Below are positions 1,311 through 41,300 of a stretch of DNA of 64,000 bases, piece by piece; positions within the stretch are counted from its first letter, which is position 1, and each line of letters begins with the position of its first letter. The DNA comes from Branchiostoma floridae (Eukaryota > Chordata > Leptocardii > Amphioxiformes > Branchiostomatidae), in NCBI RefSeq assembly GCF_000003815.2, contig NC_049982.1, positions 20,077,139-20,141,138 on the forward strand, written 5' to 3'. The translations under genes were made by a program, and so were the position numbers. The notes under the pieces are model-generated. The model did not search any database and was not told the DNA's origin. It worked only from the letters and a program-made list of their open reading frames with translations.

Positions 1311-4300
1311 CTAGATCTACTTGTTCTTACTCATACATCTTATGTATGTATGTCTACAGGCAGAGTCGGGTAATAAGGGTACAACAGCCACCACAGACCC
1401 CTGTGACATCAACGGGGCCCACTTCAAGCCGGAGGTGTACCTGCAGCGTCTCATGCAGGAGAAGTCACTCAACGAACTCATGGACAAGGAGAGGGACATG
1501 GTCAGACGTAAGGAGCTTTATCATCTACAATACAACTGTTGTCTATATTTCTGCTGTTGTCTATAACTATATACTTACAGAAGATTATTTCATCAGAAAA
1601 AAATTAAGTACATGTATTGGATTTCTTACATTGAAACTTGCAAAAGTGTTTAAATCAGAATTGAGATTGTTGACAATATCACCTGTGCATCATTTTTCTT
1701 TTCCATTTCTTGATTATGAAACCTGGTACTGTCAGTATAGATATATGTAAATGGATGTAACAAATTGATTGTAAATTTGTGAAATTTTTTGCAGAAATCC
1801 GTTCCTTGGATAGTGACATGCAGACCCTGGTGTATGAAAATTACAACAAGTTTATCAGTGCTACTGACACAATCAGAAAGGTAAGCAGAAATAGGAGAAA
1901 CAGCCTTTTGTTTAGGAATATGAAAATAGTCTTTACTCTTTAGTTTACATTTAAAAAGAGCATCAAGACATCATAATATTTTGCAGTTATTATCACAGAA
2001 GTGGTGGTGCCATTTCTTATTTTGTAGTCAACAATTTGACAATTTTAACAATTGAGTGACACTAAGTATTTTTCTTTGGTTAAAATGTGCTTGTATTTAC
2101 TCTCTGGTCACATGGTTTAAGATATACTCTGTACTGTAATAGTACATAGCACAACTCCATTTTGTTGACATAGTTTGTTGCAAGCCTAGTACAGTAATGA
2201 GACAGCAGGTTTGATGTTTTCCATCCAATTCTTTAGATGAAGAACGACTTTAAGAAGATGGAAGATGAAATGGACCGCCTGGCCACCAACATGGAGTCCA
2301 TCACAGAGTTCAGCGCCCGGATCAGCGGGACTCTACAGGACAGACGACAGCAGATTACCAAACTATCAGGGGTGCACATGCTGTTGAAAAAGGTGGGTTA
2401 GATGCTATCATGCAATCTGAAATGTCTTACTTATTTTGTCATTCACTACTTGTACTAAGATGTAGAATTCACACCCTTAAATTTGGCCAATCTTCCTTTT
2501 GATTTTCAAAACAAAAATCTTACCCAAGCTTTGAAACAGTACTGAATTTTGTTGTGTCCTTCTTACAGCTCCAGTTCCTGTTTGAGCTGCCGGCACGACT
2601 GAAGAAGTGTATTGAGATGCAGGCGTATGGACAGGCTGTCAGGTAACATTGTCTGCTTCACAGAAGCAGGAGTAGGATAGCTTCGGTATCATTGTAGACA
2701 ATTGACATTTTTCCTGGATACTTCATGAAAATACTTGTTGCATTGTGTTGTGCTGTAATGACGTAAGTTCAGATGATATTTTGTTAAATGTATTTGTCTT
2801 ACTCAAGGTTTTTCTCTCCAACCCTGACAGATACTACACCAAGGCCCGTACAGTTCTGGACCAGTATCAGCACATGCCATCCTTCCATGGCATCAGGGAG
2901 GACTGTTCTGTTATTGTTGCTGAACTCTGTGTCAAGCTCAGGGAGCAGTTTAAAAACAAAGAGGTACGACAGTCAAATATAGCGCTGTCATAAGATAAAT
3001 TTTATTACTTGATGGCACCTTAAGGCACATTCCCAGCAGTCTGCCAAAATTAGCATTCTAGCCAATAGAAGACAGAGACTGCAACTTTGTGTCTACCACT
3101 TCATCATTTGCATTTTTACATCACACTGATGTAACTTGACCAAGAGTAGGTAAGGCTATTGGATTGTGTCTTTTAGGGCAATATGTATATGAATTATGTA
3201 TGCATCAGCATAAAATAGAACAGAACTTCTCCCCTATTATGTACTTACATTGTACCAAAACGTGCTGACAAAGTTTGATGTGACCCTTGATTGTTCATGC
3301 ACGTGTGATAATGCCTGATTCCCACCTCCCCAGTCTGATGCTCACCAGCTGGCGGAGTGTGTGGATCTCCTGCTGCAGCTGAAGGAGCCGGCAGACGAGC
3401 TTTGTGATGAGTTTCTTCTACAGTAAGTCTTTCATTCTTTTGTGTACTGATAGTCTCCAACATACAAGGCTTTAGATGCCCACTTGAAAGGTAATACTTG
3501 AAACAATTAACATTCATAGGATACTTAGTATCTCTCTCACCTGCGTACATTCCAATGTCTCTTAGACACATTCCTCATAGCTTCTAAAAATGCAGGTAAG
3601 AGACAGTACTGATTGTGTAAATGAAAACTCCAATATCCTATGTTCTACCAACCTGATGAAATTATTTACAACATTCATGTATCAAATAGTCGTAAATAGC
3701 ATAGCAAACAGTTAGCCTGTACATTTATGCAAATTTAGAGATAATTTGCATGAGTTTTGTATGCAGTGTCAAGATACATCATATGCAGGATGTGTGTACT
3801 TTGCAGTTGGCAAATTACAACTAGTCAAGGGAATGATGGTACTTTAGTAATAATGAGAAAATGCCACATGATATGCATAAAAAGATTATACGCTTGCAAG
3901 TTATTATGTGAAACAAAAAATAGGGGAAGATTTCAATGCTTTTTGGCATATTTCTTCAATGTTTCAGAGCCAAGGTATAGCCCAATTACATGTAGCTACA
4001 TCACAAAACACATTTCCCTGCCTACAGATGTTCTCTAAGATAGAACACAAGATCATCCATCATTTCCTGTCCCACCTCAAACCTGGCAAACTCTGGTACA
4101 TAACCAAAGAGCTGGAACACCATGTGAAAGCCTGACATGTAATGCTTCAGTTGGACCTGTACACCTGCCTTTTCCAACCTTTTGCTGAAGAAAATGCCAT
4201 TGTCTCTGATGGAATCATGTTCACAGACAGCTATGTATGTCATGGGTAGTTGTTTTAGGTCAGTCTGCTCAGCCATCAGTGGGGATATGTACGGGTGGAG

Positions 4301-7300
4301 GAGATTCGCACCTTTGGGCTTCAGTCCAACTTCGTCTGCGGACATCTTTTTACCCGGTGGACGGGGCGGAATGTTGGGGTTGATAAGATGTGGGTCGAGA
4401 TAGTCTGCATAGTGGGAGGAGTTAAACTTGTCTGAAAGGTTTTCGTGAGTCAGAAATGTCTGCACCAGAGACAGGTCACCCACAAGATAGTTTGACAGGA
4501 ACAACGCAACTTTTTCATTGGTTAAGGGATACACATGGCCGCTTTGTCTGTAAGAAGGAGTGTCCAGACTCACAAACTGTGTTCCAGGGTAAATCAGGGC
4601 TTGAAGTCGAGGCATTGGCGTGAAGTTCTGTTGGCTCAGCTTCAGTGATACGGTTGCAGAAAGATGTCCCCCTGCACTGTCACCAGCCACTGCAATGCGG
4701 GAGGGGTCCACATTATACTGCTCTGCATGGCGAATGAAGTGTTTGGTGGCTGCCAGGCAGTCGTCAAGCGCAGCAGGGTAGACGTGCTCTGGAGCTAGTC
4801 GATAATCCACAGATACAACCGTAACACCCAAGGTCTTGGCCAGGTGAAAGGTTATATGGTGATGCGAGTTCACATCAAATAAACAGAACCCCCCTCCATG
4901 GTAGTAGATCAGTCCAGGACCCTTCCCAGTCTTCTTCCCACCTATAGGCTCATACAGTCGAACCTTGACCCCAGCAAACGTGGTATCAGTGACTTTGACA
5001 GATGGATCTTCCAATTTAACTTCTAGGACTTCCTGCATAGCCCTCATGAAGGCCAGTTTTGTTGTAAGGCCGAGGAATTCTGCGACAGTTGCCAGATCAT
5101 CTTGCAATATGATGCTGAAAATTAGTCCTCTGAACTTCCCCTTTTCCGCGATGCCTTCAGGGACTGGAGGGAAGTAATGCCAGGCAGCTAGCACAGCCAG
5201 CAGAGCCAGCACCACGGAGGCTTTAGTTAGAGCAGCCATGTTGCAGGAGATCCCCTTTGAACCTTGGTCCTCTAGTTCATTCCAGTTGGTCAAAGTTCAA
5301 TTGCAAAGAATGAGGGGGTGTGACTGTTCACAAGTTAATTATTAAGTGGGTCAATAAACAGTGTCTGGTTTTTTTTCTGTTAGAAGAATGTATTTGTCCC
5401 AGGCGATAAAAAATGTGGACAAAACTTGGGCAAGTCTCTTACTGGTATACATGTAACGGCTGTAACATGCATTTTGTAGCTTGGGGTTCAGGATTGCTTC
5501 TGATCTTGGTCAAACAGGTCTAGACTGTATTCGTATAATAAACATGTTGACACAAGACCCATGATTTAAATGGGAGTAAGTTCTTTGATGACTGCCTGTA
5601 GAGTCTTGATGGGTACTTGATTAGATGGCCATGGAAGAAACTTACATAGTCACATGCACACACACACACGTGCACATGTGCATGCACATGTACACAAAGA
5701 CACATACACATGCATGCACATGCATATACACACGTACAGAAGCATTCAAACACACAGTGTCACACACATGTGCACATTCACATGCACACGTACACAAGCA
5801 TGAACACATACACACAAAAACACACACATACACACACACACACACACACACAATGCCCACCTAGACACAAAAAAACACATACGGAATTGTTACTGGTAGC
5901 CATACAATGTAATTGAACAATTGGCTCGTTCAAACTTTGATTGACAGTGGAAAGTAGTAGTTGCATGTCTACATCGTTGTATAAAAACTGTGAAACTTGG
6001 ATGTGGTAATCAGGTGCTGTCTCATGTTTGACAGTGCCCGACACAAGGTGGATGAGGACCTGGAGATGTTGCGGCTGCAGCTGCGGATGTTGGAGGAGGG
6101 GCAGGTGCCATCACCTGGTGATCCTGGGGACGGAGACAAGCCTCATCCCATGGTGGGACAGACCTGAACTTAGCCTATCATTTTTATATCATATCATCTC
6201 CTAGTTATGATAAATCTACTTTTTAGTGCTATCAACTGGTGATTCACCTTTATACAATTGTGTTGTTATCTGTGTATTTAAAAAGCTATGTGGAGGGTAG
6301 TATAAGTAACGCTGGTTCTTCTTTATCTGTGGGGTAACCTATATCCATTGTTTTTAGAAACAGGATGTATTTAGGGATGTCATCAAGTCAACGGTGGTTT
6401 CAAACTGCAATGTTTTGACAATATCACAATTTTAAAAACAACCGTCCTTCGACTTGATATCTCTGAATACCCTATTTTAAAAAAACAACGGATACAGGTA
6501 AGTCATATAAAGGTGAACTAGCGTTAGATATTATATGTAGGGGGATGTAATGGTTGTTTATTTATTAGAAAATAAGTCAAACTCGAAGTGCTTGTCTTTA
6601 ATATATATTCCCATGCAGGATGTTCTGGAGTTTACCGACACTGGCTGTAACGTGTTCCTGAGTGACATGTGTCTTGTCATCGCCTCATACAAGGACCTGT
6701 TCATTAACAGACCTGGCACTGGGTAGGTCTACACAGAATCAGATACCTCACAGAATAAGTGGCCTTTAACTTGCCCTAGATTTGTGCTTTGGTGATACCA
6801 TGGAGTCTTTTCATGATTTTTGGTTGTACTTATAACGTTTCAAGAACATGGAGCTTAATCTTTTGCAGCTTAAACATCAGAACATAACAGATAGACTTCC
6901 TAAGCAATCCATACATAGGAGTCAGATGTACATGTATAAAAAAGTCATTATCTCATTATCTCCAGTCTTTGCCATGTTGCTATAGTAACAGCTTGACCCC
7001 ATGTGAGTTTATTGTGTGTTCTCAGCGTGCAGGAACAGGCCCATCTGGAGAAGGTAGCCAACCAGAAGCTGGAGGTGTTTGTCAACTCTCTGATGGGACA
7101 GTACTTCAGCTATGTGGAACAGAGGGTGCAACTGGAGGTTAGAACATACTGTCCGTTTTGTATCTTACCAATCCTCTACTGTTATATCTGTAATAGTTCT
7201 AGAAAAAGGGGTAAGGGATGTGAAGACCACCACTTACCATGTTTTCACCCTAATTATTATGGTTTCATCCTTGACAGTAATACAAAATCCTTGTGCTTTC

Positions 7301-10300
7301 ATCACATTGAAACTTTATTATGTAACATGCTTAGTAGTCATTATGATAGTAGTACTGTCAGATCATCACGGCCACATCACCCCAGACAGTTTCGCCATCT
7401 TGCTGCTGATAGACAGAACTGGAGGAAGCTTGCAGTCGCCTGTGCGGCAGCCGGCTGATGATGATGGTGATGACTGTCAGCATAATTTACAATATTTCAA
7501 TTTGATACAGTAACTCATCATCATTGCCACAAAGTTAGAAGAGTGAAATGGTTATTAGACAATTTAGATAGAGTTTCCTCTCCTGTAACAGAAAGAGTCA
7601 TCAGACAACACCCTGTTGGTACGAGCACTGGACCGCTTCCACCGCAGACTACAGGCTGTGGAGAAACTCCTGCCAGAGACAGAGTCTACAAGGTTGGAGA
7701 ATATCCTTTTATAGGCTTTAACTTTTTAGTGGGTTACAACACAAAGTCGTTTACATAATTATACAAAACAACTTGTATTGTAAGCAGTCAGCATTGTAGC
7801 AGGCATAAACATGGTGTTCTCACTAGTATCAGTAAAATATTTCCAGGAGAATCTCATTTTGGAATGAGTCTTAGATCAAAATCACTTGTTATATTTCCAT
7901 CCATACTTTCAATGTACGCTATAGTTGCTTTATTTTCAATGATTGCTATAGTTGCTCACAAATGAGGCCATTCTAGTTCTGTTCAAATTATGGAGAATTA
8001 ACTACTAAATTTATATAATTAGTCTTTTAAGATAAGTATATTTCCTTCCAGCTCTGCTACAGGCATTGTGGCCAAGATGGCACATGACAGAGTTATCCAC
8101 TATTCTGAGGCACTCAGGAGACATTTTGCAGGTCTGTTCATGGGTTCACCTTGATTGTTGTGTTGTAAGGTACACATAGATGGCACACAATCTCCTGTGT
8201 CACTCAAGTTCAATTCTTTTAAAATGTTTTTTTAAATACATGAACTGTTAATACATACATGGATGGACATAAAAGCAACATTGTAGCCTGCTATACTTTG
8301 CTATAAAACTGGCTGAATTAAGTTAGTTTTAGTCTTAAACAAGACCATATCACGTCCAGGACAAAAGACACATAGAAAAAACTGCTATAATGGAATATTC
8401 CCATTAACTATGCAAATGTATTCCTATTTTGCATAATTAGTATTTCATTTTGTAAAACATTGTCTAAGGTACCTACATACCTAGTGTCATAATCATTAAA
8501 ATCCGTTGTTCCCTTCTTGAGTTATGAAAAGTCCTTTTTAGCAACAAATTTCTACCCATTTTGAACTACATGGTACGGTCCGCCTGTGACATGTGGAGGT
8601 CAAGGAGTCATGACCCATGGGCCTAAGGAACGCGTCAACTGTGGTGTGCAGGCTAGGGGTGGAATCAACCAAACCAGGCTGGGGGGTTGTAATGCTTCAG
8701 AAGTTTATGACAAAAATGCCCCTGCTATCCCTAAACTAGCCGCTAGGGGGCCCAAACTTATGTCACTAATTCCTGACCACAAGAGCTATCTAACACCCAA
8801 AATTCGTGACCATAGCTTGTTCAGAAGATGAGAAAACACACCCGGAAGTTGCGCTGCAGTACCAAGGGAAGTTGCTAGGGGGCCCAAAATCTAATCATTT
8901 CCAGCTTTCATCACACCCTACCAACACACCAAGTATGAAACCAATCCACCCAACCGTTCTTGAGTTATCTTGTTTACACACACACAGACAAACGCAGGGT
9001 AAAATATAACCTCCATTCCATTACATTTCATGGAGGTAAATAGCAACCTTTACATATACAACATAACATATTTATGAATAATCAATACACCAAATTTAAG
9101 CCAGTTCATCAGCTGCAAGATAAACCTACATTACCTTTTTTCTAATGCTAGCACATACAGTACATGAATTTTGTAGCTAGCATACTGCATGCCTGATGTT
9201 GTGTTGCTGGTGTGTTGTTCAGACTGCCTGACAGATGTACGACAGAGTCTGGCTGCCTCACGCTCACTCAGTAAACAGGAGGGCAGCAACCTGGGAGACC
9301 TGCTGCAGACAACAGCCACCTCCATCTTAGACCAGCTCAAGACTGTGCTGTCAGATCTCAGGGTGTGCTGTCTTTTAGTAGTTCTTTTACTAATTCGACA
9401 GTCTATGGGAAACGTCACATGAAAATGTTGTTACAATTCTCGTAGATTATCATTCAGCTTACTAGTATAAAATTGTTTGTCATTTGTCATTTTCTTTCTT
9501 CTTGCTTTTCTCTTAGGCTTACCCTCCATAATCCTTATGGTCTATCCCAATGCACAATTTATGCTTTTTATTAACACATATCAATGTGTGTTACCCTTGA
9601 AAGGAATATCAGCACTATATGGAGTCTCCATGGCATGACATCCATAAAACTAAACTGCCTCTTGTTTTCCACTGAAACAGGCTTTCATCGAGTCAGACAT
9701 CACGTTTGCGATGCAGCCGTACTTCCGCGAGCCGTTCTGTGTCCAGGACGTCAGGGAAGGTCTCGTGGTCGGGTTCCTCAAACATATGTTTACTGCCTGC
9801 TCTGTAAGTAATGCTGCCAATCGGACCAGGAACTTCTGGAGAAAATTTAATCAAATGATTGCTGTTCATATAGGATTCAAAATTGCTATTGTTTGACTTG
9901 TGCTTCAGATAATACATGGAATTCAGTGCTTGGTTCACTGTGTCTTGTTATACAGGAGTTTTGTGAAGGTTCAGGGGACAAGAGTTCTGCCCCCCCACCT
10001 CTCATCCTGCTGCTGTCTCGACTATGTCTGGACTATGACATGACCACCATCAGCTATCTGGTGAGTAGGAATATTAAAGTGGAGGAGGGAGGGTGAAAGA
10101 GCAAGCAAATGGATGGCTGAAAGTGAAAGTAGGAATTGAAGGGATGTGTGTTTAGCAATAAGGGTGTTTCCATAAAGTCAATATACAGTGTAATCATGGG
10201 ATTCTTTATTACTAATACTAATATTACTGTCGGCAGAAGGTTATTTATTTGATACGTTCCCTGGGCTGGGTATGTTTGTTGTTTTATGATCAGCATAACT

Positions 10301-14110: not shown

Positions 14111-17100
14111 GGAAGATGCTGACACAGTAATTCATGAGATGATCTAACTGTATCATGTACTGAGATGTTGAGGGACTTTACCTCTAGTTACTGGCATGTG
14201 GCAACAACCAGATTTATAGAGTAGCAAAATTTGTGCCATCACAACCAGTAGACACAGTTGAAGTGCACATAAGATGATGTAAAATTTCTATATGATGTGA
14301 ATATCTAGCTATCATTGTTTTGATCATACAACGATTGGTATATGTGCAATGGACATTGTATCTTCATTGCTGTACAGTAAAGCCTCCACTTATTGGATAG
14401 TCTTGGACCATAGTGAAGACTGTTAGTCTGAATTGAAATGCAGGATCATACAGATTTCAAATATATATATCACTGTTCTTCCCTTGACTGCTGACCTATA
14501 CTTCTCCATATGTGAAGTACATAGGTCAGTAGGAGCTGTCAGTCAAAGGTAAGCTTGGTTAGCCCTGACTACAATATTGTCAGTGAAACCAATAGAATAA
14601 AAGAGTAGGAAAGATTGTAAGTAGCATAGCCACAAAATTTTAATAACTTGAAAGTTGTTATAAGTTGTTGGTATAAGCCATCAAGTACAATCATGGTTGA
14701 ACTGTAACTTGCAACACAAAAAGCTTTGTTTAAGTTCAATTTGGTTGTGTTGAAGGTTACAGTTCAATTTTGATTCCCTATAAATGATAACGTTTGAGAA
14801 AGTACCTTGTTTTACATAAATCAGATGTAAAGACTATTTCATGAGAAAGGACAACTTTCAGACATTTTAGTAGAGTTTTGTCGTACAATATGTTTAATGC
14901 ACAAAGTTGGGTCAAATCCATGTTGTGTGAACAGCAGCTAAGTAAGATAACTGTATTGTGCAATATGGTAATTTTGATTGTGATCCTAAAATTGACTAAA
15001 ACTGCCTTTAATTTGCCTATGACATGTGTACTATGTAGATACATTTGAAGTACCAGTCTTGATTGTCCATTCATTATCAGCTTCTGCAACACTAGGTACT
15101 ACATGTTTTGGTGCAAAAAAGGCAAATACAATAGCCAACATTATGCAAACTTGATATGTAGTCCAAGATAAACTTTGAAAGCAGACCTGGTAATAAAAGT
15201 ACTGTCATAACATCAATATCTTCTGAGTACCTTCCTTTGAATTAATCAGAGGACCAACAGTACCCACAACAAGGGTTGTATTGTTTAAATGGATCAGTAA
15301 AACTCATATTCAGGTGTCTGTAACATTAGTAATCTCCAAGCAGNNNNNNNNNNNNNNNNNNNNNNNNNNNNNNNNNNNNNNNNNNNNNNNNNNNNNNNNN
15401 NNNNNNNNNNNNNNNNNNNNNNNNNNNNNNNNNNNNNNNNNNNCTTCTACCATGGTAACTTTTGTCTTCACAGTGTACTGGTTGGAATACCTGTACTAAT
15501 AGCTAGGTGTCATTATTACCTGTTCCACGTTAAGCACCAGTCTGCAGGGGTACAATAAACACAGACACCTGCGGCACTAGTACTTAGCATGGGGCAGGCC
15601 AATCACTGGTGCTTCTGTCCTAATGTCTTTATAATACTGGATGTGGTCATCAGAATAATAATAAGATAATATGTTTTCTAAGTCTGACTCAGAAGAGGTG
15701 ACATAAGAACCAAAGCACAAGTCAATCTTTTATTGTTGTTTTTCTACCCCTTTCCCTTTTTTGGCATAAAATGTTTGAGTTCCACCTTGCAAACTTGCTC
15801 TTAGAAAAAATGACGTCCATGCCAAGTTTTTTTAGGCTATTGTTATCCCCCCACCCCCCCTCCCCCAAAACAAAATTCATACAGAAATAGCTTTAAAATT
15901 AACAATTGAAATGTTTTGTTACTCTTTTCTATTTTCTGTATCACACTATGGAGGTTTTATCTCCTTGATCACACATAGCCTGGAAACCATACAAATTGTA
16001 CATTCTATCATGGGAAAGGTGTGAAGTCTGAATATATTTGGTTTGACATCTGATCTAGAGGTGGATAGCTTTTAACCCAGTACAGTCCACTGCTAGGAAT
16101 GTGGACACCCAGATAAAGTATAAAACAAACAACTGCTGTAACAGTTATATACTATTGAAGTGACATCAGGTGGGCTTGGCTGCCATGACAACTGTGACTG
16201 GACCTCTTGGTTGGTGAAGTTTGAAGCATTAGAAATGTTCCCTGTTGTAAGTAGGACTGCGCAGGGGATAGAATCAGTCCACAGCACTCCCTGCGGCAGT
16301 ACTACTTAGCACAGAGACAGTCGCTTTCATCTCAAACTACTTCTCATATCTTCATCCCTTAACAGTCAGGAAGATAGGTGGGCTGCACCTTAATCCACTC
16401 CTTCCCTGTATAACATATCTTAAGAAAAACTGCATTTTGTAATAGAAATGAGTGTGTTCTGGAAAATTCAGACTAGAGATCATGAGAAACAGGAATGCTG
16501 GACTGACATACTCCCTAACCAAAGGCTACTGTTGCTGTTGTCTGAAATACCTTCTGTTACATTTGCTTGAATTCTGCTTGATTGGTCTACCAGTCTTTTA
16601 GTAACCTATCATGATGTGCAAATACTGTGAGTTACTGTCAGTGTATGATGACAATTGTACATAGAACATTGAATAACACAAACTAAAAGAACAAGAACAA
16701 TATGGCCATAGAAAAAGAACTATGGAAGTAAAAACTCATGATGGATTTTGGAGAAACTGAAATCTAAAAAACTTTGTTTGCCAAGTCATCATTATCTTAT
16801 TTTATTGATCGTTTCACAAATCCAGGAGTAGTCTTTTCCAAAGTACACTCAATTTCAGGAAAGGGGAAAGCCAGCTGAAAAACTGTTAACTTTCATTGGT
16901 CAAGCAAAATACTTCTTGGCAGGTACATTGTGTACCGATATGTTTTCTTATGACTGAACACAAAAAGGATTTTACAGGCATACAGGAAATACACATGGCA
17001 ATATATTTACCACAACAGTTATGAAAACAATAATGTTGTGAATCTACTTCTACCTGTTAGCAAGTGAATTTTCTGAAGAATAGTTCTGTCTTATATTCCT

Positions 17101-21508: not shown

Positions 21509-24500
21509 TCAGTACTTGATGTCCCACTGCCGGATGGCGTTATCCGTTCCTACGGAGATGAGCTTGTTGTCTGTCAACCACTCCAGGCCCACGATTTGGC
21601 TTATCGGATGGGCACCTGAGAGAAAGAATGTAGAGTTCAGAATGGCATAATATACCAGTCAGCTACGCTCTGGTACGAGGCATGGTAAAAAAAATGCATG
21701 TCTCAGAAACAGTACAAAGTTTGTCATGCATCTCTGTAAGGTTGACACAGCACTGCCAGTGTTGCAGTTATATCGAAAATACCTCATACATGTACTATAA
21801 AACATTCAAAGTTTCAATGATACATGGTATATCATCCTCATCGTCTTCCCCTTATTTTCAGGTTGAGGTTACTACACACATCAATTTTACTTTGTTAAAC
21901 TACATTGTACCACTAAAGTTTTGCCCAAAGTGTAAAAAAATCAAATACAAAAATTAAAAAAAGATACTGTAAATGTTTTTAAGTTCGCGGGGATCTAATT
22001 TCGCGGTAGCGGGAAAAACGACTTTTCGCGGTGGATTTATGTTCGCGGTAACACCATACACTGCAATCTAATATCATAGTAGAAAAATGTTCGCGGTGGT
22101 TTTAAATTCGCGGTGAAGTGGTCACCGCGAAAACCGCGAACATTAATCCACCGCGAACATTTCTGCATTTACAGTAGTCCCAACTTACTGGCCCTAATTT
22201 TTTCAGGACCGAAACAAGAAACACCACATTTTCCCTAGGCCTAGTGTCAATTCATTTGTTGCAATTAGATGCTAAGCCTGACCCATCAGATGTGTGCCTG
22301 ATAGATCATACCATAATCATTAATACTAGATATGGGTTGGTAGTAGAACAGAATAAGGTTCTTGACTGTTACATGTGATGGAACATAATCTTATACTTAC
22401 CCTTCATTTCAAACCTATTGTACGGTTTAGCCAGATCCCAGATGACGATGTTGGTATCCAGAGATCCGCTGGCCAGATGTGTGCTGCTGGGGTTCCATGC
22501 CACACAGGTGACCATGGCGTTCTGCATCCACGCATCTGTGCCCTGGACATCCTGGAGGGACAGACAGAAGGGTGGGACCACTGAATAACAGCAGCACTCA
22601 GACTGGTTCATCACAAATAAACAAGGAATTTACTACATCCTGACTCATTTGTAACCCTTTCTACTGTGAATTTCAAAGTCATGGAAACTAAGATCTCAGT
22701 CTTTAACACAGGCTTATCACTCCTGTCTTTAGAATTTGAGCAATAATGTTTCTCATCTTTCAGATCTTTCTACCACAACAAATGATCAAAAAGTGCCACC
22801 TAGCAGGACAAGGGAATAATGCAGTTTGTTGGGACAGAAGGCTTCATTAGAGACCCATTGTTATGTGAACAGATAAAACAACTTTACCACATAGCCAGCA
22901 GAAGCGTCCAGGGTTGTGATATGTCTGGATGTCTGTGCACAGGACAGGTACCTGCCGTCGGGGGAGAACGCAAACGCAGTGACAGCACCCTTCAGCTGGA
23001 TGGTCTTACACTCCACCAGGGTGTCTCCTGCCAGGTTATACACATACAGCTTCTTGTCCTATTTAAGATGAGAGATAAACTAATTGCTTCACATTTCACA
23101 ATTCAAGGGGAGATCTATGTTTTAAGGATTAAAACAAAGATGGTTTACACATGCTAAGATATTTGTATTCGCAGGGCAAAATTGTTTATAGAGAACACTT
23201 TAACCTTACCCAAAACAGTTATAGTGGGTACATCTACTGAAGGCTTGTTCAATACAAAACCCTCCATCAAAAAAGCTGTGCCAATGTCATTTAACAATAC
23301 CTTAAGCATGTACATGTATTTATCACAACAAATGTGAATAGTGAATACCTTTCCTCCCACCATAACCTGAGTCTGGTTGGGATGCACGCCGGCAGCAGTC
23401 GCTTCGTAATTGACGGGCAAGCTGAAGACCTTCCTCCCATTTCTCAACACAACCACCTTGAAAGAACAGACGATTGTGTTTAAATTTATCTAATCTAGTC
23501 ACTACCCTAAGTCTGAATGCAGACTGTTGCCCAATGGGGGAGGAGGGGGGCAACCTGCTATAAACCTTTGCACAAAAATCAACAAAATGAGAAAGCAATC
23601 AATCCATGTTCTAAGTACACATTTAGGACTTTCCCAATCTACATTCTACCTTGTACAAGAGTACTGTAACAGGTACTGTTGGGCCAGCGCAATCAGAGTC
23701 ATCAATATTCAAAATACAAACGTGCAACATGCACCTTGTTTTCAAGATTTGCACGTAAAAATATTCTTAACATGCAGATGCAGAAACTACTACTATTTTG
23801 CATGTATTACTAAACTTTTTCAAATTGCATGCAAACTTTCGACCAACACGCAACTTTCCATGTAACCAAAAAAAAGACATATTTCGAACACTGCACAGTA
23901 ATAAATTGCAATTTTTTCAGTCTTGTACTCTGATTTGCTATACAATGACTATCCCAACCAAAAAAACAACATCCAAATGCAGATGCAGACATGGATCCAG
24001 ATGTGGATCACAGAGTTCTGGATAAAACTAAGACTTGTTATGACAGTTAAACAAAATAGGATAGCAAAGATAATGCTTCCTAACAACTTTCATACATTTC
24101 ATTATTCAATGACAAGTAATAACAGTGCAGACTGATGCATTCCTCACCTCATTTATACAGGCAGCCACTGACACACCATCCTTGCCCACTCCAACACCTA
24201 GAGGCGTTGAGTCCATTGTTATAGCATCTGGTCTGAAACACATACATGTACATGGAAGAGCCAGTGTAACACAGGACTTTTATACGTTAGTGCAATGACC
24301 AATTGGTTAATTCAAAATGACAGTACAGAGTCTAAGATACCTTGCAAACATAAATAAGAGTGGACATGAAGAGAAATACCAGTTTGGCTAAAGGGACTAA
24401 ACTTATGCATTTAAAGATATATCCAGATCAAAAGGCTAAGCAAGGTAGAAGGGAGAAGAAGGGTTTTCTTACCCGTACTCATTCCCAGGTACAGACGTGT

Positions 24501-27500
24501 ACCTGACAGAGTCGTCCATGCTACTGGTGATGAGATTCCCCCCGTGGACCCCCATACCCAGCACCTTGTTGCTGTGACCCTTCCCACTGATGACGTCATG
24601 CTCGCCTGTGGCTGTATCCCAATGGGGTGAGTGTGGTTAAGGAGCACAACGTCTCTCTATTGCTGTTCAACATTGTAAGCACTACTAGCAGGATACAAAA
24701 GTAATGCAGATCAAGTAGCATTTTGTGAATGTTACAAGTTCTGTCAAATTATCCTCCACACCCAGTTTGGCATTTAAAGAAATATGTGTCTGACCGACAA
24801 CACACGTGGAAGATCAGGTATTAATTTATAGTTTACGTTCTGAAGTGATTGGTCATCAGTATTGATCAGGAAGAAGGCAACAGTGGTCATTGACAATTTG
24901 ATCTATTTGTAATTTTGTGTTGGAAGAAAGTTTAGTTTTGTAGTATGATTACTACCACAGATGAACACAGATGAGCATGATAATAATCTATCAGCATCGG
25001 TGCTAACCGTTTGCATGAATTGCTAACCAATTGGAAGGCAATTAAATTGGTACCATTTTGTTTTCACATTAGATCCAAACATACAAGAAAAGACAGCAGA
25101 GTAAAAGGATATTGATACGACCACTGTTGTCAGCCGTGTAGATTGTGGATTTGTCCTCAGTGACAGCCATGGAAGAAATAGGCTGGTTGTGACCCTAAGG
25201 GGAAAAAGGACTTTTAGTAAAAAGAAAACATCATGTTGTTGAATGTACTGACAAAAGGAAAACCACTTTTGGCAATATCAAGTCATTTGGGGTAAGAAAC
25301 TTCCATTACCAAAACGCTTTAAAAATGTTGGATACAACAGACTAACCACATATATAACTATCCTGAGTAATTTGACTACTTGTGACCAGGTGTACTGACC
25401 TTGGCTATCCTGATGGGTGTGGTTGGGTTGGACCTGTCCAGGTAGTTGATGTACCCATTCAGAGACACAGACAACAGGTAGTCACCCTGCCACAGACAGG
25501 ACAGCTGCTGGTCCTCTATTGCTGTTCCCATCTTAAACTCACTAAGTGAAAGGGTGCAAAATAATTGAGTTTGAGATATTGCTTTTCTAAGCTTAGATTT
25601 GTTTGATATGGAAGAGCAGTAAAAGACCAAATCATGTCCAAAAAAAAACAGATTTGCAAGGCAAAGAGAAAGAACCCTTGCTGGATTAGTGCAGATACCA
25701 ATATTGTAGCATATCTCATTCATTTACTAGTACCTGCTTAGGATTTCACTTACTGGACTTGAAGTTACACGTCTTCAAAGCATGACGCGTGAAATTGAAA
25801 TTCACACCTCAGGCTTCTAAAATGGAGATAAAAAGAAGTCCTACTAACCTGACCATGGAATTCTGTCCCATGTCCCACAGTTTGACAGTCTTGTCTCCTG
25901 AACATGTAATGAGCTGGGTGCTATCAGGGCTCCAAGAACACTGTTATAATCAAACCACATGCAGGAAAGTCAGAGAGCTACATGATGTAACATTGTCATC
26001 ACAAACAAGTACATGTATAGTGCATTCTATGCTTTTTACAATAGATAAATATCAAGGACAATAATGACACTGTTGTTTTTCTAGCTGACACTTGTAGCAC
26101 TTACAAAGTTGAAATACGGAGCTACCTAGTATCAAAACATGAACATAGCAGATTGTATGTGTATAACACCCCGTTCATACTAGGATTCGCGTATCCGGAT
26201 ATATCCTCATTCGCGGTGAATCCGGATTCGCGAACCCTGGTATGAACGGTCCGATTCCGGATCTTTATGGGATATATCCAGATACGCCAAATCCACATCT
26301 GGAGGTGGATTTATCCGGATTTGCTGCGAGGTGAACCCTGGTATGAACGCAATAGGATTCACGTATCCAGATTCGCTGTCGGATCTGACGTCAAACTTAA
26401 CCCTTAAGTAGTGTTTGCTTTGGTGTAGCATGATAAGGCTGAGGCAATGGGCTTTTTTTAGCACGGCGTGAAGACATGCACTTGTAGCCATGCAAACACT
26501 CCATCATTTTGGTTGCATTTCCTTCTTTCAAGTGCACGACGCAACTCGTTGCCTCACCCTTACCATGCTACACCAAAGCAAATGATACTTAAGAGTTAAG
26601 TTTGACGTCACCAAGCAGCATCAGATGGTGTAATTAGGATATATCCGGATCTGATTTTGGACACGAATAATCATATCTGGATTCAACTAACCCTGGTATG
26701 AACGCAAATGGATATGTCCGGATTTACGCCATATCCTGATATATCCAAATACGCGAATCCTAGTATGAACGGGGCCTAAGAGATACACTCACCCCATAGA
26801 TACCCCCACCATGAGCATTGCTACCACCACCTCCAAGTTCAGCTATCAAATCTGCAGTTTTCCCATCATAAATGAAGCCCTGGAAGACATAGGATGGCAA
26901 CCCATCAACTGAAAGGTGAACTTACAGGCACCTATCCAAACATTTCTGCCAGAAAGCTGAAATTCTAAACACATGTAAAACAAATATGATCTTATCTGCA
27001 GTATTGGGATAAAATGTTTGAAGAATGTCAACGATACATTCTATGATGTCACAAAAAACGTTTTTACAGTTTATAACATCATCAACTATCTATAAACTGA
27101 ATATCTTTAACAAGTTCTAAAAAGTCATTATCCTTGGTGTGCATATCATCATTTTACTCTGATTCTCACCAAAAAAAAACAGAGATTAATATCAAGACAA
27201 GATGGCAGTGTCCATATAGCTCAAGATAAAACAGAATGTATTCCACTAAAACCAGTGACTTATTATGGATAGATGACGCATGGATGCAATGTTGTACTTA
27301 CCTTGCCATCAGCACCAACTGATACGAATCTCTCACCATCAGGAGAAAATCGTACACAGTTCACAAAACGTGTGTGTTCCTGAGGAGAAGTAGAAAAGCC
27401 AGTTTTAAACAAACAAATTTCCTCATAGTGAAGAGACAATCTAACACTAAAATCACTACATTAAATTTCCCCTTGTAATTGTATCTTACACACAATGTTG

Positions 27501-30500
27501 CAATTATTGAGTTTTGAGTGATTTCTGTTCAACAGTAGGACAGGAAAGAATTGGTGCATCTCTATGTACCAGCTCAAAGAAAAATACCAAATGTTCTTAC
27601 AGCGAGCGACATCTTGAACTTGAAAGGTGGTCCCTCATAAAAGATAGTCGTGGAGTCGTCCCCTCCCGCGATGATGCGAAAGGGTCGTGTCGGCCGGTAG
27701 TCGATGGAGTTGGCAACTTTGCTGATTCCCATCAGCTCGCCGACAGAGCTGCCAGTGTCCCACAGGAAACAATGGGCAAACCTGAAAACATGGACAGTCA
27801 CTTGTAAGATTTAAATTTTCAATTTGTGACAAAGACTTTTTCTCCTTTTGGTGGTCCCTTAGATAAGTTCTTCCAAGTTTTAAGAATCCTGTCTATAGTG
27901 ACCACCTGACCAGATAGACCAGATTTTATCATTAGCAGGGGTTGTCCTGGGCTGTTTTGACTATCATGCTTACTTTTCCTTGCCCTCTCCACAGATAGCG
28001 ATCCTCTTGCTGTCAGGTGACCAGACTATGTCCTTGATTGGGCCCCCTATCGGCTGAAACTCGTTCTTCAGGATGTGCTCCTTGTTTACGGTGTCCCAAA
28101 TACGCACCTTTCCATGCTCATCTATATAAGGAAAAGACAGACATGTTTTTACTAGACCAAAAATGCCAATTAATTATCTTTAGCTAGACAGAAAATTTCA
28201 TGCAGGACAGACATGTTATTATCTGTAACTATTATGATTAGAAATCACTTCTGGTCTAAAGCACATACAGATTTATCATTACATGTGTATGTATCATATT
28301 ACTGCAAATCATCTAACAAGTTTTAATAATCATATAACTTGACTAGCTTTCTCTAAATTCTAATATCCGCATGTAGTCTAAATGCAGGTTTTTTTCTTAA
28401 AAGGTAAAAGTAACAGAACCCAACATCACTACACAATGCGGTATTGTATTACAATCACTTTGAACCATGTACAATTGGGGCAAGTATTACCTGCAGACGC
28501 AATATAAAAGCCACTGGGAGCATATTTGGCGACTGTTGTCTTAGCAACATGTTGTGTGTAAACATCTGAGATCGCTGGGTTCTACACAGGAAAAAAATCA
28601 TACAAAAAAATATACTTTCAGTTTCAAACCATGTTAGTCATGATACTGGATTCAAAGGGCATAACTAGAGTTGACTTTGAGGGCATGTCACAATTTTTTA
28701 TTGTACAGCAGTACTATTCCAGAAGTACTGAATTCCCAGTACAGAAGTCCCTCTGACATAGGCAGGGAAATTTCTATACAGAGAACTCAGGACTTCCATA
28801 ATACATGTAGTTCCATGGTACCAGTCATCGATATCATAATCTTAAACATGTAATTCCAAACTTGTTCAGATTCAGAACCAAATTATTTGCACTCATACAC
28901 TTTGTGACGTACATAGGAAGCATTGGAGAACCATGAGACCTTCATTCCACAAAGACACCAGCCAAAGTTTGACACCAGTCAAAAATCGTATTACAACAAC
29001 AACAATTTACATGCACCTTCACCAGACTAATTCTAGGTGTCCGACTCACCTCTATATCCCTGATGATGATGCTCTGCCCGAAGCAGTACAGGAAGTTCTT
29101 GCCTTTTGGGTCCCCTCCGAGATTGAAGGCTGTAGCACGCTGGGTGCGTGGGAGGGCAGGGAACACGGTGGCTTGAAAAAAAAAAATTATTATTGACATT
29201 TCATCCACAATTTGAATAGTAAAAGCGTAATCTTTCTCTACCAATATCATGTCAGGTTTTCTTGGAAGTTGGAGCTTGCTTTGTCAGAGGTTTCAGGCAG
29301 GCAGTACTGTTAATCACTGTATGCAGTAGGCAGTACAATGTCAGAAGTACTGATATCATTGATTTATTTACTTAAAGAATTCCTGCCTTCACTCCAGGCT
29401 AAGTACAACCCTTGTAATATTGTATTGGGCTCAGAAAAAAAAATAGGTGACTGTATGATGATGGACATTTAACAATTCATGTTTTGACAGGATAGCATTT
29501 ATCCACTCTTAGGACAATGTGTAACTCTTTTATTAGTTTTAGTTATACTGTCCTGACAGAATGAAATGTACTGAGGCCATACTGACTTGATCATATGGAT
29601 AAAAACAACATTTTCTTTGTAAGGTGTGTTGTGCACATACATCACATATGCAATAGTAGGAGAAGTGTCGCAAAGCCAAGAATGACAAGAAAGAACAGAT
29701 ATAAAGAATTTCTTGTATGGTATACGATGTTCTGTGTGTTCAGTTATTTGTTCAGCCTCCTGACAACTTAGACTTTATAATGAACTTCAGAAGGTAACTT
29801 AATTACTGCCAAACATGTCCCAACTTTCTTTTTTGCACACAATTACTAGTACATCAGTCTTGGGATGACCTGAGGACATGTCATCTATATAATCATATCG
29901 GTATGGCTTACAGCCAATTCTTGAAAAAACAAATATAGTGGGTGTGACAGAAATGTGACAACTCTATATCCATACTACTTAATACATGCTAGTATATCGC
30001 TCCAAAGATACCCTATCCCACCCACATATATAGATATCAAAGTGAAAATATTTTGGGCATCCGTATGCAATATTTGGAGAGGTACAATATGCCTGTCACG
30101 TTTCGATGAGGTACGGAGGGTGTAGTATAACAGGAGAAAGCTAAACATACATAAAGTACATGACGGGTCACTCTGGTATGCTAGGTTGTAGTGTGTGGCC
30201 AGCAAACATAACACATCTCTGCCAGACATAAGTAGTATAGTACAGGGTGGATTTGCCACAGCTAATGCTGAACTACACATAGGCACAATGTGTCTCCAAG
30301 CTGTTTCGAGCTTCATAATTAACGAAGACAGGCCAAGAACACTCTCATATAACCATGCAAAAAGTATACTTCTTACTTTGACAGAGTTTAGTCAGGAAGT
30401 AAAAGCATAAAAAAAATTTTGCACGGCCCCCTCTTATGTCAATTATATCAGGTTCTTCAAACAAGTTGCATTCACCGCAAGAATCCTGCATACGCTGTAT

Positions 30501-30776
30501 TCTATTATATATTAGCACACAGGCTATGGAGCGTGTATTTACAAGCATGCACGTATGAGACAAAAGCAACATTCCACAGAGGTGAATCAAGGTATCTTGT
30601 ATTATCATACTAGCTGTACACACACCTCTACTGCCTAGGCTGGCGCGCCCTCCCAGTAAAGCCGGTTTGTGAACATTCAAAACCCAGTAAGATATACAAA
30701 ACATTTCCCCTTAAGAATAAAAAGACAACGAGTATCAACCGTTGATTTGCTACTTACTTTGTAAATATTCAGACAT
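21509..30776 (-). CDS. WDR1: WDR1 / actin-interacting protein 1 (AIP1), 16 exons, 605 aa
   Basis: AIP1 works with ADF/cofilin to disassemble and cap actin filaments in the cytoplasm. The family folds as two seven-bladed WD propellers. Exons in transcript order: 30776-30758, 29171-29050, 28581-28491, 28121-27974, 27781-27601, 27379-27302, 26879-26793, 25940-25849, 25541-25400, 25194-25113, 24626-24473, 24232-24148, 23456-23349, 23058-22888, 22551-22401, 21615-21509. Every phase fits and the total is 605 aa, against 606 in human. The first exon encodes only MSEYLQ plus one base. Diagnostic stretches are [41 protein letters not shown] and the C-terminal RQWDIKY. The intron 24627-25112 is of the AT-AC type, and using it restores the residues GRITHWD. 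The others use GT-AG. A CArG box and an ETS site lie upstream. Confidence 0.96.
21965..22176. repeat. MITE, TACTGTAAATG family (copy 3, youngest-looking)
   Basis: A 212-bp foldback element in the last WDR1 intron. It begins TACTGTAAATG and ends CATTTACAGTA. The interior is packed with TTCGCGGT and its complement ACCGCGAA in inverted arms, keeping many CpG dinucleotides that have decayed in the other copies. Confidence 0.85.
24627..25112 (-). other. U12-type AT-AC intron in WDR1
   Basis: Read on the minus strand, the intron starts ATATCCTTTT, the U12 5' splice-site consensus. It has TCCTTAAC at 24643-24636 as a branch site and ends CACTCAC, with the branch adenosine about 10 nt from the end. 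Joining 25113 to 24626 keeps the frame and inserts RITHWD, matching the WD segment found at this point in vertebrate WDR1. GT-AG alternatives nearby lose that segment. Confidence 0.88.
26168..26776. repeat. Near-palindromic foldback element, about 610 bp
   Basis: The left end reads CCCCGTTCATACTAGGATTC and the right end is its inverted copy. The arms contain many ATCCGGATATATCC-like units and a repeated phrase resembling CCCTGGTATGAACG. The centre is inverted too: the AAACTTAACCCTTAAGTAGTG region near 26392 pairs with TACTTAAGAGTTAAGTTTG near 26587. It lies in the WDR1 intron 25941-26792. No ORF or target duplication is clear. This is probably a non-autonomous DNA transposon. Confidence 0.85.
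29873..29912. repeat. Solo diverged terminus of the GGCCATRTTGATTTG element
   Basis: Read on the minus strand, about 37 bp resemble the terminal inverted repeat flanking the LINE at 44.1-48.3 kb: a GATTATATAGATGACAT core preceded by TAAGCCATACC. No partner end was found nearby. It lies in the first WDR1 intron. Confidence 0.45.
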
Positions 30777-32902: not shown

Positions 32903-35068
32903 ATGGAGGTTCAAAAGGAGTGGTGGAAGACTCAGCTCGCAACCGACATTCACGAGACGCTCCGCACCAAGGAGGCAGAACTCCCGCCATTCAAGTATGT
33001 CCATCAAGTAGTTCCAACAAATGTAACAAAGCCATTCTGAAAAAAATTGATCACAATCACATACAAGTGCATCTTTGTAAACTCATAATTATGTCATATG
33101 AAAGAGATCTGCACTTTATTCTGTCATCCATTCACTTTTTTTGTCTTCCTGACTTGTATTCATAACAAAATTTTCTTTCTATATTTACCAGGGGTCTGTC
33201 CCCCCAGTTGGGCTTGCGCAGGTATCTGGTAGACTGGTTGAGCATCATTAATGAGAAACAGGGTGTCCACTGTACAGCACTGCACCTGGCTGTTTACCTT
33301 CTGGACCAGTTCATGGACAGCTATGACATCCAGGAGAGCAGGATGCACCTGGTGGCGCTGGGGTGTCTACTGGTGGCATGTAAGGCACAGTTCAACAGTT
33401 AACTATCAAGCAACAATGCTTCAAAATCTTCATCAGACTTAAGAAAAATCTTGAGTGCATCAAGAGTCAAATATGTGATTACATTTTGGACTGTTAATCT
33501 TGAAAGCTATGGTATTATTAGTGCAGTTTTTGTGGTGACGTCTTAAAACGTGACTTCATGATGCCACTACTAAAATATGTCTCCCTTTGTATGACTACTG
33601 TACTATAGAATTCTTTCAACTGCAAGTTTAAAACACCTCTCCTTCACTGGTATGGCAAAATAAAACCACCACAAAAGGAAAATGAATTTATAGTTTTTCC
33701 ATCCAGTCTATAAATACTCTCCTTTGAGTTTGACTACAAGTTTTTGACCCTCCCTGTATATTTTGGATTTGTATTACCATGGTAGTACTAGTAGGTTTAA
33801 TCATCTGGCATTGAATAACAAGCTCACTGAAAGTTTATACCAAATTTCTGGTTAGCTTCTTAACTCATGTACAAGTGATCACCTTACAGGTAAGTTTGAA
33901 GAGGAGGAGAGAAGAGTACCTCGGATCAAGAAGCTGAACCAGTATGTGAGAGAAGTCTACTCTGAGGAGGAGTACCTGCAGATGGAGCTGACTATCCTGA
34001 AGTTCTTCCAGTGGAACATCTCCCTGCCCACCCCTGCACACTTCCTGGACTACTACATGACGGAGGGGGTGTCCCAGTCCGACCTGCATGCAGGCTACCC
34101 TGTGTGCTCAGTCAACAAGAGCAGGCTGTACCTGGAGAAGTACTGTCACTACTTCTTGGAGGTGTCCTTACAAGGCGAGTACAAACTTGTTAGAAAAACA
34201 AGAACGGAATACAATGGATTGAAAGACATGTCTACTAGTATCTAGATGGTGCTCGGCCAGTTCCAACAAGTATTGAGGCTTGAAAAAAATTATTGGGTAG
34301 TATTCAAGTGATGATAACTAGTATATGGGCAAGATTAATTCATGATGAAGCAGTACCTTTTTAAAGTATCTTAATGATCAGCTATCATGCTAGATGTGAA
34401 ATTATCCATGGCCTAACCATGACGTGGGTTTCTGAAGAAGAGATTGGTGATAGTTTGCATTACTTCTGTAGACCACTGTTTCCTGGTGTTCCGTCCATCG
34501 GTGATCGCAGCGGCATGTGTAGCGGCCTCCAGAATCTGCCTGCACCTGTCGCCCACATGGACCAGTCGTCTCCACGGTATCACCGGGTATCGCTGGGACC
34601 ACATCGCGCCTTGCATCGAGACTATGCTCAAGTAGGTCCGCCTAGCTGCTCTGTCATTTTACTGTACTGATGCAGTTCACTTTCATTTCTGCGTGAAAAA
34701 CAAATAAGATGACTTTTCTTCACCTTTTCAAAGCTTCAATTTCCTTATTCTGGATAGTTTTGTACAGTAAATGGTCATAACTGTTTTTTACATTTTTGTG
34801 GTAACATATTTCATTCAATTCATAACTTTCAATATGCTTAATTATCAACAAACTGTTACCACTTGTGAGGCTTGGAATGACAGTATTGCTAATGCATTTA
34901 AGTACCTGTTTTTAAATAGGTGACATTTTACTACACAGGGTGCATGAAATGGATGTCAAAGCCACAAAGACAAGCAAAGACACCAAGGACAATGTCTCCA
35001 GTGCCATGATGTATGAGAGAGGGAAACACAGTGGCTACAACAGAGGTTATGCTGTCTGCATCTCGTAG
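32903..35068 (+). CDS. CCNJ: Cyclin J (5 coding exons, 284 aa)
   Basis: Cyclin J is a nuclear cyclin first described in the Drosophila germline; its kinase partner is less settled than that of mitotic cyclins. Coding exons: 32903-32994, 33192-33379, 33890-34174, 34472-34631, 34939-35068, all in phase. A noncoding exon ending at 31325 precedes them. The start MEVQKEWWKTQLATDIHETL is typical of the family. Other markers are LHLAVYLLDQFMDSYDI, the cyclin-box segment ACKFEEEE (residues 93-100), FFQWNISLPTPAHFLDYY, and the second cyclin fold with RLHGITGYRWD. The intron after 34174 begins GC instead of GT. Vertebrate cyclin J (about 370-380 aa) has a longer tail. Here the frame stops shortly after the second fold, so either the tail is short or a further 3' exon was missed. 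Confidence 0.93.
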
Positions 35069-38351: not shown

Positions 38352-41300
38352 CTACCAGGTCTTGAACATCCCCACACTGTCAATGAAGCTGGTCAGTTCT
38401 TGGTTGTCACGGTAACCACCATATAGTTCTAGCTTCCTCGTGCCATCGCTATCAAAGAAGTGAGAGATCACCTTGCGATGACTAAGCATCTTGAGGGAGT
38501 TCTTCAGGGTTTCTGAGGAACAGCTTTCACCTGGAAAAGAAAACAACTAACATGAACATTTCAGACTACCCCTCATATATACATTCAATTTTGGACACTA
38601 GAATATCCAAGTCGTAGTAAATAATCATGGTTTCATCTGTACACCATGTTTTTTTTTCACTATTGCCTTCGTAAAAATGGAGGTATTGTTTCTGTCTATT
38701 TGTTTGTCAAGTTGTGTGTCTTTGTTTATATCCACTCCATTTTAATGTATCTAAAAGTTTCCCTCACAGAATTCTAAAGTATGCTGATACAAGTGTACAT
38801 TTGTGTGTTCTCCGGTAGAAGGCTGCTTTCCTTTATTCACATTCACATTAAACAGATTTTCACTTGTCTTCGAGAGACAAAAATACTTGAAAGCTATGGG
38901 TAGTGAAGAAATAACATGTTGTGTAATGTAAACAGACCATGTGTGTGTCATGTGTAATGTAAAGATACAGCGCTTACTGCGTATTGCTACCCCGTCCTCA
39001 ACTCTCCTGATGGCAAACTTCTGCAAGGACTGCAGGTACTTTTCCTCTGTCATGTCCCCGCCCTGTAACACCTCCAGGTGAGAGGCCGACACCCAGTACG
39101 CCTCCACCATACCTGCCAGGATGCTCTGCAGGAAACCCAACTTCTGCATGTGTGCAGCTGCCGTATTCAGCTGTACATGGGAACAGTTGAGAATTAATTC
39201 ACAAGCTTGTTACTGCCTAAAATATTCACTTGTAGCTAACAGATGTATCAGGAATCAAATTTTAACTGCCTCTTTTCAAAGACAAACTCCTAATACTTGA
39301 ATCTTGGGCTAAAGTCTTCCAATGAAAGGAGCACATTGGGTCAAATTTTCAGTTATCAAAAATTTTGTTGTTTGGAGGATTATTACATGGATCAAACAAC
39401 CTATTCACAAATGAGGGTGGTTCTGCTACTACTCCTATTAAGTATCTGCATATTTTCTTAGTTGTTTACATGTACATCTTTGGTAGTGCCCCTACCCTAT
39501 ATGACAAGTCCTGCACCGAAGGTGACCCATCTATGTTATCCTCGGCCTGGTCTTCCCAGGATGTAGCAAAGGCCAGTTGGTCAGCCCACTGCTTCTCCCT
39601 CTGACTGGACGTGCTGTCCTGTTCATCGGTCAGCAGCAGGTCTGAGTGGAGCAGGGAGTCCAGTCCATCTCTGACCACATCCTCCAGACTACTGCAGCTC
39701 TGGATGAAGGAAACACCAGCAACATTTTGTCTGTTACGACTTAGTCACAAACCTCTTCTTATTGGCTGAAAATAGGAGTATTATACTTCTTTGTCTTCAA
39801 CATGAACAGAAAATGTGCAACATTCCCAGTGTCTATTGTCAAAGTCAGTAACAATACATGAACAAGTCATTGTACATTATGCAAGAGTGACTACTAGTAC
39901 TTAGTGGCACCTACAGGTTTTGGTACACAGATGAACTTCATCAACTGTCATGCATACAAATGAACATGTGGTTTGTATACATATTTTGGGGACCATAGCA
40001 TTGAAATCAAATGCAGGGAATAATAAACATCTACAACTTAAAAGTAGGCCACCTACTGGTGCAAATATGAACTCCATCTGTAGCAGCTGGCTGAGTTCCT
40101 TGGCCCTTTGTAGTAGGGCCTGTCTGGACACCACCACATGCTGCCCCTCCTGTAGGTGGGCTGTGTTAGCCTGGCCCTCGGATACTGCACTGATGGCTGT
40201 GGCTGGGGAGACATGCAATATGTATTCAACACTAGTTAAGAAGACAGCCAGACAGATGGCCAAGGAGTCAGCTAATTCTGTGCAAGTCTCAATCTGAACA
40301 CTTCTTCCAATTTTTTGTAAAATTTGAATGTGAAAACTGACAACAATGAGATATTCTAAACCAAGTTCAAGGTCATGATATTGTGCTAAAACATGTCCAG
40401 AAATCATATATCTACTGATACAAACAGTTCTGACTTACAAATGTTACATAGACATACACTTGCACATAAGTGCCATACTAATGTAATGTATGTTGTGCTT
40501 CACAAATCTAGGTTAAGTTTGCTCAAGGAGTCCTTGGTGTGTTAAAGTCATCTCAACTTGACTGCTGTGCATCAAATTCTGGTGGATTTTTTTCTGCCAC
40601 AATTTGCACCCTTAAATTCAAACCTATGCTCCCATCTTACCTGGGAATGTATGACACAACAAAGTTTCTGTGTCACAGTCATAATATCACACCAAAGACT
40701 ACATCATTATGTACTGTTTGTCAATGATAATCCATAATCATGGACATAGAGCCAACCTTACCTAGAATTGACTCCATCAGGAAGACAGACATGACATTGG
40801 ATCCATAATATGTTAGATCAAAGACTGAAGGTAGTCCCAGATTTGGTATCAGTATCCTGTCCTCCTCCTCCAGTTTCACATGGTTGTTGTTCTGGTTCTT
40901 CCTGTTGTTGGTAGGTGTCTCCCATGTGAAGAGATCGGTGCCTAGCAACTCCATGGCGTGTCTGAGGACAGCCGATGCGCTGCCCGTGAACCCAACATCG
41001 CGGCCGCGGAGAAGAATCTCGCATCGGATGTGCTCAAACGATTTCTCAAGCTCGGCCCAAGTTGCTCCCTGGAGCAAGACAATACATTTAAGTTTTTTAA
41101 CATTACCTTTACATACCACCAATGAGATGGAGTAGACAGTCAACTTTTTCCTTTAAATCGTCTGAGAAACAAGTCATCAAATTGCAAGGCCTAACTAGAA
41201 AGGAACAGACCCAAGACTGCAGAATGGTACCCACCTGTCTGTGTACAGCCAGGAACATGAAGGCCACCAGCTGGGTGCTCATTATGGCTGTGGTCTGGAC

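Follow-up and report, generated by a model that had tools for sequence, protein, structure and literature searches.

The question raised by this locus is whether a minus-strand gene in the window (the whole stretch of DNA analysed, 64 kb in length) is WDR1, and whether one of its introns belongs to the minor, U12-type class with AT-AC ends. WDR1 is an actin-disassembly factor. The gene model, in which the termini of every intron were read from the sequence, was arranged as follows.

21509..30776, minus strand: coding region of WDR1/AIP1 (605 aa) in 16 exons, separated by one AT-AC and 14 GT-AG introns
25113..25194, minus strand: WDR1 exon 10, ending ...NSGRI and the first base of a T codon
24473..24626, minus strand: WDR1 exon 11, following the AT-AC intron

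Joining the 16 exons gave exactly 605 aa with a stop codon at the terminus only; intron 10 of 15 was AT-AC and the remaining 14 were GT-AG. When the 605-aa product was used as a phmmer query, the WDR1 chain 9qfq was matched over residues 8-605 (E 6e-199), worm AIP1 (1nr0) over residues 1-604 (E 6.6e-149) and yeast AIP1 (1pgu) over residues 8-603 (E 4e-63). The predicted product is WDR1/AIP1, as its homologue matches span the full length, and the identification of the gene and of its 605-aa product made in an earlier, sequence-only reading was borne out. Exon 1 is the least certain of the exons; its seven residues were selected among 23 candidates by likeness to the worm N-terminus (MSEFSQT in the model, MSEYLQT in the worm). 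Relatives of WDR1 were also sought in two sequence collections, and tblastn identified no relatives among three pattern-matching stretches in viral_contigs and none among 19 in genome_contigs.

The signals of intron 10 are located as follows.

24627..25112, minus strand: predicted U12-type AT-AC intron of 486 nt, tenth of the 15 introns of WDR1, interrupting codon 348 in phase 1
25103..25112, minus strand: 5' splice site ATATCCTTTT, the sole minus-strand RTATCCTT in the window
24636..24643, minus strand: branch site TCCTTAAC, with the two A's 11 and 10 nt upstream of the 3' end of the intron
24627..24628, minus strand: 3' splice site AC, read from sequence

Read on the minus strand, the intron runs ATATCCTTTT...TCCTTAACCACACTCAC, and its AT and AC termini, one of the two arrangements sought (AT-AC or GT-AG), fit both the reading frame and the homologues. 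The consensus of U12-type branch sites is TTCCTTRAC; the 9-mer at the branch site of intron 10, CTCCTTAAC, carries the two A's at the distances listed and agrees at eight of nine positions with the consensus TTCCTTAAC. The donor at 25112..25103 conforms to the rule RTATCCTT given for U12-type 5' splice sites in PMC2846911, and an optimum of 11-13 nt between branch site and 3' splice site is given in PMC3584512. Phase 1 is in keeping with PMC10639083, in which minor introns are reported to be biased against phase 0. Pyrimidines occupied 13 of the 18 positions upstream of the acceptor, against 9-16 of 18 in the 14 sibling introns, a count that falls within the sibling range partly because the branch site is itself pyrimidine-rich; the want of a distinct polypyrimidine tract expected of U12-type introns does not emerge from it. 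The donor, the branch motif and the acceptor were thus found exactly where they had been placed in the sequence-only reading. These data make it very probable that 25112..24627 is a genuine U12-type intron, which would be spliced at its AT and AC ends.

The protein sequence across the junction is consistent with these boundaries. The AT-AC join reads GGT-CGT-ATC-A + CC-CAT-TGG-GAT and yields GRITHWD of a WD40 blade; the exon 10/11 junction then aligns without a gap to the WDR1 chain 9qfq (GHINYWD) and to worm AIP1 1nr0 (GHINSWD), in agreement with the earlier proposal that these sites restore RITHWD and align the WD segment with WDR1. If intron 10 were retained, 14 residues would be computed to follow GRI before a stop at residue 361 of 605.

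The frequency at which such signals arise by chance was estimated from 400 random 64-kb sequences generated under a Markov-1 model with the same dinucleotide make-up, both strands being counted. The average per 64 kb was 2.7 copies of ATATCCTT and 2.3 of TCCTTAAC, but 0.015 combinations of donor, branch site and AC within 1 kb, a figure to which the further requirement that the pair coincide with a gap between exons and preserve the frame has yet to be added. The window itself contains two copies of RTATCCTT (25112, minus strand; 7701, plus strand) and two of TCCTTAAC (24643 and 35404, both minus strand). The motifs are singly unremarkable; their pairing at an in-frame gap between homologous exons is not.

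The possibility that the plus-strand copy of ATATCCTTTT at 7701-7710 is a further U12 donor was rejected, as use of its AT site, judged by eye, breaks the frame; the copy is probably a chance occurrence. A GT donor 8 nt upstream of this copy seemingly ends an exon of a gene we take to be VPS51-like. By eye, the frame of both flanking exons is kept with GT 7693 and an AG ending at 8051 (plus strand), and the next plus-strand TCCTTRAY after the 7701 copy is at 15962. A Pfam search with a 52-aa piece of this VPS51-like gene gave no match. On the opposite strand, and judging from the frames seemingly inside an intron of the same gene, there is an apparently intronless open frame of 423 aa (4022-5293, minus strand) with an Abhydrolase_3 domain (2.4e-60).

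A first alternative to an AT-AC intron is an ordinary GT-AG intron that uses nearby sites (for example GT at 25118 or 25094, AG ending at 24612), with the U12-like motifs present by accident. Both GT-AG pairs keep the frame, giving segments of 65 aa (25118/24612) and 73 aa (25094/24612) against 72 aa for AT-AC. The pairs GT-AG, GC-AG, AT-AG and GT-AC were compared with AT-AC for donors from 25174 to 24901 and first exon bases from 24760 to 24561, each pair being scored as its summed BLOSUM62 against two homologues. Among 97 frame-keeping, stop-free pairs none exceeded AT-AC 25112/24627 (score 280) and one equalled it. The best GC-AG pair reached 246 and the best GT-AG pair 225, at least 34 points lower, and the two named GT-AG pairs, 25118/24612 and 25094/24612, fell 72 and 55 points short of 280. 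The next-ranked pairs, at 273, were two further AT-AC pairs that add two residues. The equal score belongs to the GT-AC pair 25118/24633, the donor of which has no U12 likeness, and mixed splice termini are described as disfavoured in PMC3584512.

The splice sites required by a GT-AG intron also score low. The scoring matrix was built from sites of the gene itself (13 donors, scoring 5.3-11.7, and 13 acceptors, scoring 4.8-12.6), so that the comparison favours those sites and is not independent. On this matrix GT 25118 scored -3.6, GT 25094 -0.8 and their AG acceptor 2.3. Among the GT-AG pairs listed, no donor exceeded 2.7 and no acceptor exceeded 2.3. Against the WD40 model of Pfam the segment scored 24.7 bits with AT-AC, falling to 20.7 and 22.8 bits with the two GT-AG pairs, all three values being below the Pfam cut-off of 27; both GT-AG pairs lack the WD dipeptide. 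Pairing GT 25118 with AG 24612 removes seven residues (65 against 72 aa) and with them the WD dipeptide, which is the loss that had been foreseen for a standard predictor choosing these sites. A GT-AG intron would in addition require the signal pair to be present by chance, at 0.015 per 64 kb. An ordinary GT-AG intron is on these grounds very unlikely.

A second alternative accepts the AT-AC ends and assigns removal of the intron to the major spliceosome, as has been reported for a small number of such introns, SCN4A intron 21 among them. According to PMC2831892, the class of an intron does not follow from AT-AC termini by themselves. The AT-AC introns of U2 type in sodium channels are reported in the same paper all to have G at +5, while WDR1 intron 10 has C at +5 and carries both the ATATCCTTTT and TCCTTAAC motifs. 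Removal by the major spliceosome is accordingly given almost no weight. That the AT-AC intron is an artefact of the gene model or of the assembly, produced by sequencing error or by a pseudogene, is hardly credible, since the 16 exons share one open frame of 605 aa, the whole stretch from exon 10 to exon 11 finds its full-length match at a single site in the 513-Mb assembly, and the 200 N bases of the window all lie outside 22100-29500.

The interior of the U12-type intron contains repeated DNA.

~24830..24983, minus strand: dispersed repeat in intron 10, clear of the splice signals

At least 47 further matches were found in the genome, all inside query bases 202-388 and most ending at 365. 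Some of these matches are paired in inverted orientation, the two members lying at most a few hundred bases apart, and the repeat is therefore probably a small mobile element.

The assembly (513,431,437 bases in 431 contigs, the window included) was also searched for the snRNAs by which a minor spliceosome in the host was to be recognised, and genes for U11, U12, U4atac and U6atac were all present. Each scored above its Rfam cut-off in one place: U11 at 94.1 bits, U12 at 132.1 bits, U4atac at 81.1 bits and U6atac at 133.6 bits, where the copy numbers are lower bounds as only the best candidates were scored. A tRNA match (L001 1045-1116) was noted ∼385 bases away from the gene for U12.

The U11 RNA starts with AAAAAGGGC, and in the best duplex predicted between it and the donor, U11 bases 2-8 pair with bases 4-10 of the intron (UCCUUUU) at -6.1 kcal/mol. 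Two of the 14 GT donors of the gene equalled or surpassed this energy in other registers (-6.2 and -8.4), so that duplex energy did not serve as a discriminator and alone proves nothing. U12 pairs with branch sites in a known geometry that leaves one A bulged. The U12 RNA found here contains GUAAGGA, complementary to the branch site (UCCUU + AC, with one A bulged); the best duplex returned by the program (-7.3) joins UCCUUA to UAAGGA with no bulged A, and the textbook geometry is thus read from the sequence rather than predicted. From these complementarities a conventional course of splicing may be proposed. U11 would pair with UCCUUUU (+4 to +10) of the 5' splice site and U12 with the branch site UCCUUAAC, one A being left bulged; U6atac and U4atac would take the place of U6 and U4, and cleavage at AT and AC would join exons 10 and 11 to give GRITHWD. 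The minor spliceosome presumably removes intron 10 in the animal in this manner, the roles of the snRNAs being taken from established knowledge.

Several further features were observed in the window.

15522-15595, minus strand: mir-252 precursor (Rfam RF00838, 63.6 bits), the first of two as listed
16239-16317, minus strand: mir-252 precursor (Rfam RF00838, 60.5 bits), the second of two as listed

The two precursors are ∼640 bases apart and may be compared with amphioxus miR-252a and miR-252b, which PMC2728532 counts among five miRNAs of amphioxus with homologues among those of invertebrates. On the plus strand, 33166-34245 contains two pieces of Cyclin_N (8.6e-14 and 2.3e-06). On the minus strand, 38751-39209 contains a weak piece of GPAT_C (3.1e-05), its 23.9 bits falling short of the cut-off of 25. 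We assume that the former represent cyclin J and the latter GPAM.

U12-type AT-AC introns of animals have a ATATCCTT donor and a TCCTTAAC-like branch site near the acceptor, and stand as one minor intron among major ones. WDR1 intron 10 is an ordinary, well-supported case of this known class. The introns of fly and human PHB2, STX6 and KCMF1 described in PMC2831892 likewise have AT-AC ends; no difference of mechanism was seen, and intron 10 is set apart only by its organism and by lying in WDR1. AT-AC introns are reported to constitute ∼26% of human minor introns (PMC10639083), and conversion to U2 type is reported to be rarer for AT-AC than for GT-AG minor introns (PMC2831892).

Among the literature matches listed for WDR1 and minor splicing, PMC12637451 alone bears on WDR1. 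Table 2 of this preprint on human neutrophils (lupus), headed 'U12 intron containing genes', lists WDR1 in parentheses under alternative 3' splice sites. The human entry concerns the same gene and a U12-type intron; the intron is unnamed, and its subtype and position are not stated there. Two other matches were false, PMC11039992 referring to WDR11 and PMC8531310 to WDR19 in its reference list. Branchiostoma, amphioxus and lancelet are not mentioned in the main text of the minor-intron papers examined for these names, a joint search for 'amphioxus' and 'U12-type introns' gave no match, and none of the matches listed for Branchiostoma or minor splicing contained Branchiostoma.

The finding is a clean and checkable minor intron in a cephalochordate WDR1 gene and is mainly useful for annotation, as correct annotation of intron 10 preserves the WD motif of one blade. 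A broader and tentative suggestion, which we consider somewhat less likely to hold than to fail, is that this is an ancient AT-AC intron, conserved in position across chordates and perhaps all deuterostomes, the interior of which gained mobile-element sequence and the slow removal of which by the minor spliceosome may throttle the supply of WDR1. If its position matches that in vertebrates, the intron would predate the split between amphioxus and vertebrates.
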